From contig NC_081334.1 of assembly GCF_022539665.2 (NCBI RefSeq), forward strand, positions 8,836,424-8,900,423: a DNA stretch of 64,000 bases, given 5' to 3'. Positions 5,236 through 18,624 of the stretch are shown here, piece by piece. Source of the DNA: Daphnia carinata. Taxonomy: Eukaryota > Arthropoda > Branchiopoda > Diplostraca > Daphniidae. Numbering within the stretch: position 1 is the stretch's first letter; each line of letters begins with the position of its first letter. The position numbers were made by a program, and so were the translations under genes. The notes beneath the pieces were generated by a model. That model searched no databases, had not been told where the DNA came from, and saw only the letters and a program-made list of their open reading frames with translations.

Positions 5236-5436
5236 TGTAACGAGCCCACAGGCTATCCGAAGACGGCCACACCCTCAACATCCCTCAAGCGTTTCACAAG
5301 TGAAAGTGAACATGTCCCCTCCCATTTTACCTTCATTTTGTATGTGTGTTAGTAGTATAAATACTGCATTTTTGTAACATGTAATGGGGACTTGTTACGA
5401 CAATCCACTGCAATACACAAGGTTTGAAACTTTACA
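5236..5436 (+). repeat. 5' LTR of gypsy-B (201 bp)
   Basis: The LTR begins TGTAACGAGCCC and ends ACTTTACA, with TGTAA/TTACA inverted ends. It is identical to 18424-18624. It holds a TATA-like TATAAATA and should drive the genomic RNA. I see no clear AATAAA signal in it. It is very short compared with the 744-bp LTR of gypsy-A. Confidence 0.95.
5356..5363 (+). promoter_or_regulatory. TATA box of the gypsy-B LTR promoter
   Basis: TATAAATA lies about 120 bp into the LTR, with an identical copy at 18544-18551. Transcription would be expected to start near 5385. From there the first ATG on the RNA is the gag start at 5579, which supports this promoter assignment. Confidence 0.65.
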
Positions 5437-5438
5437 AT

Positions 5439-5455
5439 TGGAGGTCCCAACGAGA
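5439..5455 (+). promoter_or_regulatory. Primer-binding site of gypsy-B, tRNA-Gln type
   Basis: Two bases after the LTR the sequence reads TGGAGGTCCCAACGAGA. This is complementary to the CCA end of arthropod tRNA-Gln, apart from perhaps one base. It marks the start of the internal region and fixes the LTR edge. Confidence 0.7.
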
Positions 5456-5566
5456 CTCACACTTGTTGTCCAGTACAAAGTTTCTACCCGTACCTTATTT
5501 CAGTGATTGTGCTCTACACTTCCCCGACGAGTCTCCAACAACTCTACCAGACCAAGGAACACCATC

Positions 5567-5576
5567 AAAGGTAAGC
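5567..5576 (+). promoter_or_regulatory. Probable 5' splice site upstream of gag (AAAG|GTAAGC)
   Basis: AAAGGTAAGC is a strong splice donor, with the cut after 5570. It lies eight bases ahead of the gag ATG, so splicing would remove the gag start and leave a leader without any ATG. Joined to the acceptor at 12141 or 16896, this leader would present env or the ankyrin gene as the first start codon. Retroviruses and env-bearing gypsy elements use the same logic. Confidence 0.65.
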
Positions 5577-5578
5577 GA

Positions 5579-16561: not shown

Positions 16562-16603
<42 letters not shown>

Positions 16604-16968
16604 AATAACAAAATCATCGGAGAAAAAGCAGTGTAGTGTAACAAAGAACGACAGAAACTAACGCACGAAGAAAAAGAAAGACGCAAGAACCCCTATAAGA
16701 AAAGACAATGACTTAAAAAGGAAGATAGAAAGTTCAAAATGTAACGGTATATTCATCAATTCGCCCCACGGCGAAATAGAAGACGGAACACATTAAAATA
16801 GAAGAAACTACCTGTTTTGAAATTAAGAAGAGGGGAACAAGAATTTATGAAAAACTCTGCAAAAGAAGACTTTTCAAAAAACTAACCTCTTCCCAGTGTT
16901 TCAACGACATAATTCAGACAAAGTTCTACAAAGAAAAGTGCCATCACAAGTCAACCTTTACTCTAAAA
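16252..16968 (+). other. Non-coding spacer between env and the ankyrin gene, with a 37-base A tract
   Basis: No reading frame of note is present. An uninterrupted run of 37 A lies at 16564-16600, preceded by two T-rich stretches (16360-16372 and 16547-16555). The upstream ATGs in this spacer open only very short frames. A pyrimidine tract with AG at 16383-16384 is a further possible splice acceptor. The A tract could be a relic of a polyadenylated sequence inserted during gene capture, or simple slippage. Confidence 0.7.
16880..16896 (+). promoter_or_regulatory. 3' splice site upstream of the ankyrin gene
   Basis: A CTAAC branch-point motif, a pyrimidine tract and CAG occur together as CTAACCTCTTCCCAG, ending at 16896. 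Downstream of this acceptor the first ATG is the ankyrin start at 16969. The site would pair with the donor at 5570 to give a second subgenomic mRNA. Confidence 0.55.
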
Positions 16969-18210
16969 ATGGAAAACAACAACATCACTCAGGATAACGC
17001 AATGGACGTAACCATCATCCCACAAGAGGAAAAAGAATACGAATTAATATACATTAGTGATACTGAAAGTGAGAATAGCCAGCAGGAGTACAAAGAAAAG
17101 GAAAGTGCTAAAAATGCAGATGTGAACAAGCAGATAGTGAAAAATGTGGAATGGAACGGAATCAAAACCGAGAAAAACGATTTTTCCGAACTAGAGAGAA
17201 AAAGGAAAGACATCAGTGAATCAAGTGACGACGACACTGAGGAGGTAAATGCCTATAGTGAAATGGAACCCGATCTGGATAGTACCTACAGTACCGAATT
17301 TATATTGGAAAATAACAGTGACACCGGTTTCCAATATGACCCACCCCACGGTACCGAATTGGAAAATGTTAGTGACACCGACCTCCAATGTGAACCGCCC
17401 AAAAAACGGAGCAGACCGAATAACCAACAAAGGGAAACAGAAACATGCAAGAACTGTAGGATGAAGACAATAGCACCCCTTTCAACAGAACAAGCAGAGA
17501 AGATTCAACTGCACCGACAGGCTACTATTGACTTGGAAGACGGAAAACTTTGTCTATCAATGATGGAAGCTACACTACCAACTATAAGAAGATGCATCCA
17601 AAAAAGATTAGAATCGCTAGGATGTTGGCCACGACAAAAAATGGCCATATTCCTTAATAAAAGATACGAGGATGGACGTACCCTGCTCCACACCAGTATA
17701 CAAAAAGTAAGGTACGACATAACTGATGCTCTACTTGCCTATGGGGCAAACCCCGAGATAATGTATCGAGGCAGCACAATTGGACACATGGCAGCGGAAA
17801 ATAACGACTTATTCCTGGTAAGGATACTAAAACACCACAACTGCGAGTTCACAAATCGCAATAAAGACGGAGAAACCCCGCTAATGACAGCAATATCACA
17901 CGAACATGAGGAATGCGCACGCCTAATTTCGACACCAACAAACATCAAAATAGCAACCAGCAAGGGCAGAACCATCTTGCATTACCTCGCCAGATATGGA
18001 CTCGAAGACTTGGCTACGCAAATCTGTACAAAAAGAATAATTGACGTCAACCAGCAAGACGAAACGGGCACAACTGCCTTACACGAAGCAGTGAAATATA
18101 AACGACTGGACATGATCGAATTACTGCTTCTACATGGAGCAGATAAAAAGATAAAAGACAACCGTGGACATACGGCTGTAGCAAATAATAACAGCACAAA
18201 CATACAATAA
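16969..18210 (+). CDS. Ankyrin-repeat accessory protein of gypsy-B (IkappaB-like architecture)
   Basis: The protein has 413 residues, and its ATG sits in a good context (AAAAATGG). Residues 1-140 are acidic, Ser/Glu/Asp-rich and probably disordered, with a short internal duplication (SDTGFQYDPP and SDTDLQCEPP). A basic nuclear-localisation-like PPKKRSRP starts at residue 143, followed by a CKNC motif. From residue 235 to the end there are five or six ankyrin repeats (for example DGRTLLHTSI, DGETPLMTAI, KGRTILHYLA, TGTTALHEAV). Ankyrin repeats bind proteins. An acidic N-terminus followed by about six repeats recalls IkappaB/Cactus-type inhibitors and some viral ankyrin proteins. A role in host signalling or nuclear regulation is inference. 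Gypsy elements do not normally carry such a gene, so host-gene capture is likely. Confidence 0.85.
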   Translation: MENNNITQDNAMDVTIIPQEEKEYELIYISDTESENSQQEYKEKESAKNADVNKQIVKNVEWNGIKTEKNDFSELERKRKDISESSDDDTEEVNAYSEMEPDLDSTYSTEFILENNSDTGFQYDPPHGTELENVSDTDLQCEPPKKRSRPNNQQRETETCKNCRMKTIAPLSTEQAEKIQLHRQATIDLEDGKLCLSMMEATLPTIRRCIQKRLESLGCWPRQKMAIFLNKRYEDGRTLLHTSIQKVRYDITDALLAYGANPEIMYRGSTIGHMAAENNDLFLVRILKHHNCEFTNRNKDGETPLMTAISHEHEECARLISTPTNIKIATSKGRTILHYLARYGLEDLATQICTKRIIDVNQQDETGTTALHEAVKYKRLDMIELLLLHGADKKIKDNRGHTAVANNNSTNIQ

Positions 18211-18408
18211 TCAAGACAAAGGTGGAACGAGTTATTCAACCATAGTCATCATTAGTATTCATAGAAGCAGCTGTAGTTGGTGACGGAAAAAGAAGAAGGA
18301 GAACAATTTCTGTTAAAAATTCAGGTGAAGGAACAAGTTTTTTATATTATCCGTAAAACAATAGTCGGTGATGGAAACACACACATTGGAGGACCAATTC
18401 TTCTCATC
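18211..18408 (+). other. 3' untranslated part of gypsy-B
   Basis: There is no supported gene here. An ATG near 18277 opens a frame that runs into the LTR, and I regard it as chance. Two imperfect copies of a GTGAAGGAA/GTGATGGAA-like motif occur, following TAGTTGGTGACGG and TAGTCGGTGATGG. Confidence 0.6.
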
Positions 18409-18423
18409 GAAGAGGGGAAGGAA
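18409..18423 (+). promoter_or_regulatory. Polypurine tract of gypsy-B
   Basis: GAAGAGGGGAAGGAA is a pure purine run of 15 bases ending exactly at the first base of the 3' LTR. It would prime plus-strand DNA synthesis. Confidence 0.85.
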
Positions 18424-18624
18424 TGTAACGAGCCCACAGGCTATCCGAAGACGGCCACACCCTCAACATCCCTCAAGCGTTTCACAAGTGAAAGTGAACA
18501 TGTCCCCTCCCATTTTACCTTCATTTTGTATGTGTGTTAGTAGTATAAATACTGCATTTTTGTAACATGTAATGGGGACTTGTTACGACAATCCACTGCA
18601 ATACACAAGGTTTGAAACTTTACA
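18424..18624 (+). repeat. 3' LTR of gypsy-B (201 bp)
   Basis: The sequence is identical to 5236-5436 over all 201 bases that I compared by eye. It is followed by the second CACG target copy and the satellite. Confidence 0.95.

Follow-up and report, generated by a model that had tools for sequence, protein, structure and literature searches.

Does a long block of open frames in a crustacean genome represent one retrovirus-like element with an unusual set of genes, or an ordinary retrotransposon beside which other sequences came to rest? The question is raised by a 64,000-nucleotide stretch of Daphnia carinata DNA (contig NC_081334.1, positions 8,836,424 to 8,900,423; hereafter the window), in which a first-pass annotation had proposed a single gypsy element with gag, pol, envelope-like (env) and ankyrin (ank) genes. 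That proposal stands: in most of the copies tallied in the same genome, env and ank follow pol. Positions 5236-18624 of the window hold, on the forward strand, a Ty3/gypsy-type element of ~13.4 kb with four open genes, gag, pol, open reading frame 3 (ORF3, envelope-like) and ORF4 (the ankyrin gene). It is very probably an endogenous, envelope-bearing, Metaviridae-type element of Daphnia that was recently inserted. Its features, including those of its long terminal repeats (LTRs), are as follows.

5232-5235 (+): target site duplication CACG, left copy (sequence read)
5236-5436 (+): 5' LTR, TGTA...TACA, 201 bp, identical to 18424-18624
5439-5455 (+): primer binding site TGGAGGTCCCAACGAGA, complementary to CCA plus the tRNA-Thr(AGT) 3' end; begins 2 nt after the 5' LTR
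5570-5571 (+): candidate major splice donor CAAAG/GTAAGC, 8 nt 5' of the gag Met codon (consensus only)
5507-8311 (+): gag open frame, first Met at 5579 (Pfam, translation)
8236-12117 (+): pol open frame, in the -1 frame relative to gag (Pfam)
12141-12142 (+): candidate splice acceptor TTTTCTTTTCGCAG/ATG at the ORF3 start codon (consensus only)
12142-16251 (+): ORF3, envelope-like, from the first Met at 12142 of open frame 12118-16251 (Pfam, BLASTP, profile, hydrophobicity)
12208-12867 (+): ORF3 N block, residues 31-250 of the open frame (BLASTP to a compact 646-residue envelope-type protein)
15130-15912 (+): ORF3 C block with a likely transmembrane segment, residues 1005-1265 of the open frame (BLASTP, profile comparison)
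16384-16385 (+): candidate splice acceptor upstream of ORF4 (consensus only)
16969-18210 (+): ORF4, 413-residue ankyrin protein, from Met 16969 within open frame 16780-18210 (Pfam Ank_2, deposited protein P0030)
17090-18230 (+): tract replaced by a diverged allele in copies L007, L008 and L017 (edges approximate)
18410-18423 (+): polypurine tract AAGAGGGGAAGGAA, abutting the 3' LTR (sequence read)
18424-18624 (+): 3' LTR, 201 bp, identical to 5236-5436
18625-18628 (+): target site duplication CACG, right copy (sequence read)

The identical LTRs, primer site, polypurine tract and target duplication described in the first-pass annotation were confirmed to the base by reading the sequence, and the frames and their Pfam domains bear out four open genes within 13.4 kb. 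The element has the structural marks of Ty3/gypsy elements (Metaviridae): TG...CA LTRs, a 4-bp duplication, a tRNA primer site and a polypurine tract. The termini do not match those of Troyka, defined in the available part of its description by CG...CG ends and 3-bp duplications (PMC12440569). Judged from the sequence, the four frames are more than chance, since Pfam matches reach an E-value of 1e-41 and the same frames recur in other copies, several at 95-100% identity.

The gag frame comprises 934 codons and encodes a long N-terminal part ahead of a Ty3 capsid match at residues 527-634; its Pfam matches (PF19259, 2.4e-9; PF03732, 8e-8; PF00098, 3.5e-5) correspond to a Ty3-type capsid plus a CCHC knuckle. 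The pol frame overlaps gag in the -1 frame, and a search by eye of the gag frame near 8234 revealed no canonical -1 slippery heptamer. The pol product follows the order protease, reverse transcriptase, RNase H, integrase (Pfam positions 49-144, 323-483, 571-693 and 853-1197), with matches to RVT_1 (1e-41), RT_RNaseH (1.3e-34), Integrase_H2C2 (2.2e-18), rve (5.2e-12) and Integrase_p58_C (3e-12). Peptidase_A17, a mark of BEL/Pao elements, is absent from this pol (Pfam, E ≤ 1) and was found in two neighboring elements.

The genome holds many relatives of the element. Own-genome match counts, which are lower bounds, stand at at least 45 for pol, at least 98 for ORF4, at least 41 for the LTR and at least 56 for gag. 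In 24 of the 36 pol places tallied, a same-strand ORF4 match lies downstream at a distance of up to 25 kb, and in 11 of those 24 the distance is 8.4-8.8 kb from the start of pol (8.54 kb in the window). A 36% ORF4 match in the downstream sequence of a further place, C58, brings the total to 25 of 36. Further copies sharing the gene order, which the first-pass annotation proposed to look for, do exist. The presence of env in other copies was judged from the downstream pieces examined: 19 of 20 carry env or its divergent form (L019, L020), in partial form in L014 and L016, and the piece from L015 contains a nested relative only, not the element's own env. The ank gene is found in 13 of these 20 pieces and, according to the pol-ORF4 tally, lies beyond the end of the piece in four more (L013-L016); it was not seen in three (L004, L006 and L019). 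Hence the possibility that related copies lack env and ankyrin genes, which would have told against a single element, does not hold for most copies tallied. Insertions are recent: of the LTR pairs of 13 other copies, seven are identical (one over 197 nt). Four-base-pair duplications match in eight of the 11 copies with whole outer ends, all of them differing from CACG, and mismatch in three. At least two copies, counting that of the window, keep all four frames open.

Several observations weigh against the four-gene unit. Eleven of the 36 pol places have no ORF4 match. One of them (C24) lies at a contig end and two (L004, L019) at assembly gaps; pol is partial or in pieces in four (C6:10456726, C8:272867, C8:1007608 and C7:1008093) and has no start in one (C4:9106834); and small pieces taken at the predicted position showed no ORF4 match in two (C10:362368, C8:1047301). 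L006 is free of gaps, and its similarity to the element stops near 16190, without ORF4. Furthermore, an intact ankyrin ORF was seen in only one of four copies of a divergent lineage; L019 contains an assembly gap, and L021 and L022 yielded no ank in small pieces taken where it was predicted.

ORF4 matches Pfam Ank_2 (3.3e-25) and has an acidic N-terminal half, a CxxC motif and a basic stretch, PPKKRSRP. It is 99% identical to a deposited D. carinata protein (P0030) that starts at the same Met, 16969. In a protein search its close relatives were four D. carinata proteins, already deposited, at 57-99% identity; the other 31 matches were ankyrin proteins that share 23-38% identity and cover no more than 38% of the query. 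Against a broad distribution of ORF4 stands the finding that the same search gave no close relative in D. magna or D. sinensis, though ORF3 relatives occur there. NCBIfam yielded ankyrin matches only, far under the cut-off. A likeness to IkB was also considered and dropped: ankyrins, designed repeats and latrotoxins made up most of the best 60 of 420 matches to solved structures, and no IkB name appeared among those 60. A run of 37 A lies between ORF3 and ORF4 (16564-16600), and one thought is that it is a trace of captured polyadenylated RNA.

Comparison between lineages bears on what ORF4 may do. The divergent lineage resembles the window at 51% in gag (two sister copies), 71-72% in pol residues 1-731, 58-61% in the integrase part and 59-72% in env. 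The C58 ank ORF is intact, with 511 residues from its first Met, and is 36% identical over 257 residues. ORF4 is thus the least alike of the genes (36% vs 51% for gag, 58-72% for pol and 59-72% for env). Because of this low identity, and because ank is exchanged as a block between copies (see below), a role as an accessory protein in host interaction is tentatively favored. The best-surviving rival, which we regard as rather unlikely, is that ORF4 regulates its own RNA, as a nuclear protein made from a spliced mRNA that exports unspliced genomic RNA. CERV of Cer1 provides an LTR-retrotransposon precedent in the available part of its description (PMC10309623), the basic stretch of ORF4 would suit such a function, and genomic RNA would have to escape splicing, as the element contains a consensus donor and acceptor. 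Ankyrin repeats, however, are general protein-binding modules, and block exchange with low inter-lineage identity fits a host-facing protein at least as well. A role other than either of these is a serious possibility.

ORF3 most plausibly encodes a surface glycoprotein whose framework is a compact, rhabdovirus-like fusion glycoprotein with an inserted lectin/mucin-like middle. Its layout comprises an N block, lectin stretches, a serine/threonine/proline-rich (mucin-like) stretch, a C block, a hydrophobic segment and a tail. Ricin_B_lectin (PF00652) matches in three stretches (4.2e-15), and the profile recurs in all eight aligned sequences (ORF3 plus seven relatives). Counted from the Met, the protein has 11 N-glycosylation sequons, is rich in serine, threonine and proline at ~726-925 and contains a strongly hydrophobic segment (1215-1248). 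The middle part presumably binds glycans. Database relatives (n = 27) come from D. magna, D. sinensis or unnamed contigs (ena, jgi, lgn), and three cover 98% of the query at 42-46% identity; the D. magna and D. sinensis sequences were already in the databases, as proteins without a name. No relative occurred in the viral contigs scanned. Four of the relatives (P0005, P0007, P0008 and P0013; 42-46%, three over 98%) lie on contigs of 4.9-14.5 kb, the two longest of which could hold other element genes.

The compact form was recognized through a second element with a gypsy-type pol, nested on the opposite strand within the C56 copy (L015:4644-6584, reverse strand). Its third ORF (P0066) encodes a lectin-free, envelope-type protein of 646 residues, to which ORF3 is similar by BLASTP in two blocks: residues 31-250 (24% identity, 6e-14) and 1005-1265 (28%, 2e-25). 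Profile comparison again recovered the C block (E 1.2e-38) and did not report the N block. The two blocks are separated by ~750 residues in ORF3 and by ~60 in P0066. P0066 was aligned with 18 out of 66 relatives found for it (n = 19); Rhabdo_glycop_FD was matched by eight of the 19 sequences at E ≤ 1 (best 6.5e-4) and Monjiviricetes_fusion by one (0.0063); three other families were matched by one member each. The compact relatives thereby point weakly, and short of proof, to a fusion glycoprotein of the type found in negative-strand RNA viruses. In errantiviruses in the strict sense, env is homologous to the baculovirus F protein; no baculovirus F match appeared in ORF3 or its seven relatives (Pfam, E ≤ 10).

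A number of results speak against this assignment. P0066 itself matches the rhabdovirus fusion domain at E 0.034, under the curated cut-off. Four solved chains named 'Glycoprotein', which we take to be those of rabies virus, align at the same place with E-values of 0.77-1.1 and rank after two unrelated chains (0.45 and 0.7). In Pfam, ORF3 matches Ricin_B_lectin only and no fusion glycoprotein directly; PDB profile searches with the whole protein and with its C part gave no credible match, and structure modeling of that C part gave a poor result (pLDDT, the predicted local distance difference test, 55.9). In addition, the first 20 residues are signal-like by eye and below the cut-off of the hydrophobicity scan, and the basic site, K-R-K-R/S, departs from R-x-[KR]-R. 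With the lectin as its sole confident domain, ORF3 might be taken for a host-derived secreted or membrane lectin and not an envelope protein. This reading is improbable, given that two of its blocks match the third ORF of another, lectin-free gypsy element and that it is placed after pol, with a candidate splice acceptor at its start codon and a hydrophobic segment near its C-terminus.

Both downstream genes are under purifying selection, as estimated from ratios of nonsynonymous to synonymous divergence (dN/dS) by Nei-Gojobori counting. The window and L008 give an ORF4 ratio of 0.15, and L024 and L018 one of 0.24; the env ratio is 0.10 for the window compared with L009 and 0.11 for the window compared with the L023 piece. 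Near-identical pairs give scattered values that count against this reading (ank 0.11-0.85, env up to 1.58), a scatter that is due to the few changes counted.

The ank alleles appear to be exchanged between copies by recombination. Among copies whose env N parts are 96-100% alike, ank is 97-99% identical to that of the window in six (L001, L002, L003, L005, L011 and L012), yet 82-85% in L007, L008, L009 and L017 and 41-61%, in pieces, in L010; in L023, the env C part is 97% and ank 58% identical. Mosaic alleles are seen in L007, L008 and L017, in which env is broken. Up to 17090, each 300-base bin of these copies shares 95-100% identity with the window; the figure is 75-93% across ORF4 (60-base bins) and 92-100% after the stop codon, with insertions and deletions uncounted in all bins, and their ankyrin protein differs by 15% from that of the window. 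A hypermutable ank tract, or one under diversifying selection, could also confine the strong difference to ORF4 in these three copies, but is very improbable. Synonymous divergence is raised too, with a dS between the window and L008 of 0.535 in ank (413 codons) vs 0.012 in env, measured over its open C-terminal fragment (409 codons), and dN/dS is 0.15. Moreover, the L008 allele is 94.6% identical over 1365 bases to the ank of L009, which looks like a non-mosaic donor lineage, its sequence departing from that of the window on either side of ORF4 (79-89% over and around it). Since the flanks diverge in L009, constraint on the flanks does not account for the mosaics, whereas recombination does. 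The mosaics would arise most simply by template switching between two co-packaged RNAs; gene conversion between genomic copies would give an identical pattern.

The weakest rival, an ordinary gag-pol gypsy that acquired unrelated env and ankyrin sequences through chance insertions at this locus, draws on the existence of nested insertions (ank lies 13.8-23.5 kb from the start of pol in six copies, and another gypsy lies inside the C56 copy) and is extremely improbable, as independent copies sharing the gene order have already been observed, env and ank occur at similar offsets after pol in many copies with different target duplications and also after pol in one divergent-lineage copy, and selection acts on both genes.

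A life cycle can be proposed from these features for the four-gene element. The LTR would drive transcription, and unspliced RNA would be translated into Gag and, via a -1 frame change, into Gag-Pol. A consensus scan placed a pyrimidine-rich acceptor that ends exactly at the ORF3 Met codon, and 16384 is the sole passing acceptor upstream of ORF4; both ORF3 and ORF4 RNAs are therefore predicted, from such signals, to be spliced. ORF3 would be expressed from an RNA spliced from 5570 to 12142 and ORF4 from another downstream RNA. The ORF4 product would act as an accessory ankyrin protein, kept by selection and swapped between copies as a block when reverse transcription switches between co-packaged templates. 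Particles, fusion activity, lectin activity and infectivity would be expected of such an element.

Envelope-bearing gypsy elements are in themselves a known kind. According to the available parts of the reports, they are widespread, some with type III fusion glycoproteins (PMC13172572), and insects are known to harbor gypsy fragments with Jingchuvirales glycoproteins (PMC10084718). The present element resembles env-bearing animal gypsy elements, including errantiviruses, in its gag-pol-env order, short LTRs and 4-bp duplications. Unlike these elements, it has an ORF3 devoid of a baculovirus F match, a long lectin/mucin-like middle and an ankyrin gene after env. A glycoprotein of negative-strand type, possible for ORF3, would be shared with LTR elements carrying chuvirus glycoproteins, namely mosquito BEL/Pao elements (PMC13172572), Anakin (PMC12440569) and the gypsy fragments (PMC10084718); the accessible descriptions mention no lectin part or ankyrin gene, which sets those elements apart as described. 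Cer1 of C. elegans, too, is an LTR retrotransposon whose accessory protein comes from a spliced mRNA, as is predicted here; compared by description only, the portion available for Cer1/CERV names no ankyrin repeats (PMC10309623). Bdelloid rotifer LTR elements show a similar modular capture of extra ORFs, including one paramyxovirus-type fusion glycoprotein, and the modules named in the accessible text are a dUTPase, an esterase and an exonuclease, not a lectin-bearing env or ankyrin gene (PMC5408684). In the available text of a survey of D. pulex LTR elements, neither 'ankyrin' nor 'lectin' occurs, and among the passages listed 'env' appears only inside 'environment' words (PMC2996953). Within the open-licence literature, covered by titles and the starts of abstracts, no description turned up of a gypsy element whose env bears a lectin, of one that has an ankyrin gene, or of one that combines the two.

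Descriptions of retrovirus-like elements in invertebrates usually include gag and pol, with env as the most that is added. In the present element, env is followed by an accessory gene that is under purifying selection and is exchanged between copies. Ankyrin proteins are also carried by poxviruses and polydnaviruses, the likeness being that of an ankyrin protein in a virus-like agent. It is possible, if doubtful, that these are endogenous retroviruses of Daphnia that enter cells by means of a lectin/mucin-decorated fusion glycoprotein and shuffle an exchangeable ankyrin cassette between backbones to adapt to host defense. Identical LTRs and open frames throughout in at least two copies make such ideas testable in an easily cultured crustacean. 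Two questions come within reach: do endogenous retroviruses of invertebrates possess accessory genes similar in kind to those found in complex retroviruses, and do they co-package two genomes and undergo recombination?

The primer tRNA was assigned as follows. The pattern TCTCGNTGGGACCT occurs 47 times in forward and 73 times in reverse orientation genome-wide, in some cases beside elements and in others within tRNA genes. At four sampled loci, all on C1, ARAGORN gave tRNA-Thr(AGT) for TCTCGTTGGGACCT at L044, L046 and L047, the last two of which overlap one array. The element itself carries the T variant of the pattern, as do these three loci. A tRNA-Gln primer was rejected because ARAGORN gave tRNA-Gln solely for the G variant TCTCGGTGGGACCT (L045), the element's own variant being that of tRNA-Thr(AGT). 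Matches to the tRNA-Thr 3' end at C9:8292306-8305628, spaced mostly at multiples of 325 bp, are probably a tRNA-Thr array. In the divergent lineage, an identical tRNA-Thr primer motif lies just 5' of gag at C8:649810 and C8:1052285.

The surroundings of the element are repetitive as well. The insertion sits inside a 70-bp satellite, arrays of which border it at 3444-5236 and 18624-18771; when the flanks are joined across the element, the 70-bp period is retained at 83%. By eye, satellite-like flanks are also present at the copies C8:1025811 and C4:8937678. Elsewhere in the window, two BEL/Pao elements lie at 19458-24809 (forward strand) and 39698-46773 (reverse strand), with matches to Peptidase_A17, reverse transcriptase and integrase, each spread over more than one open frame.

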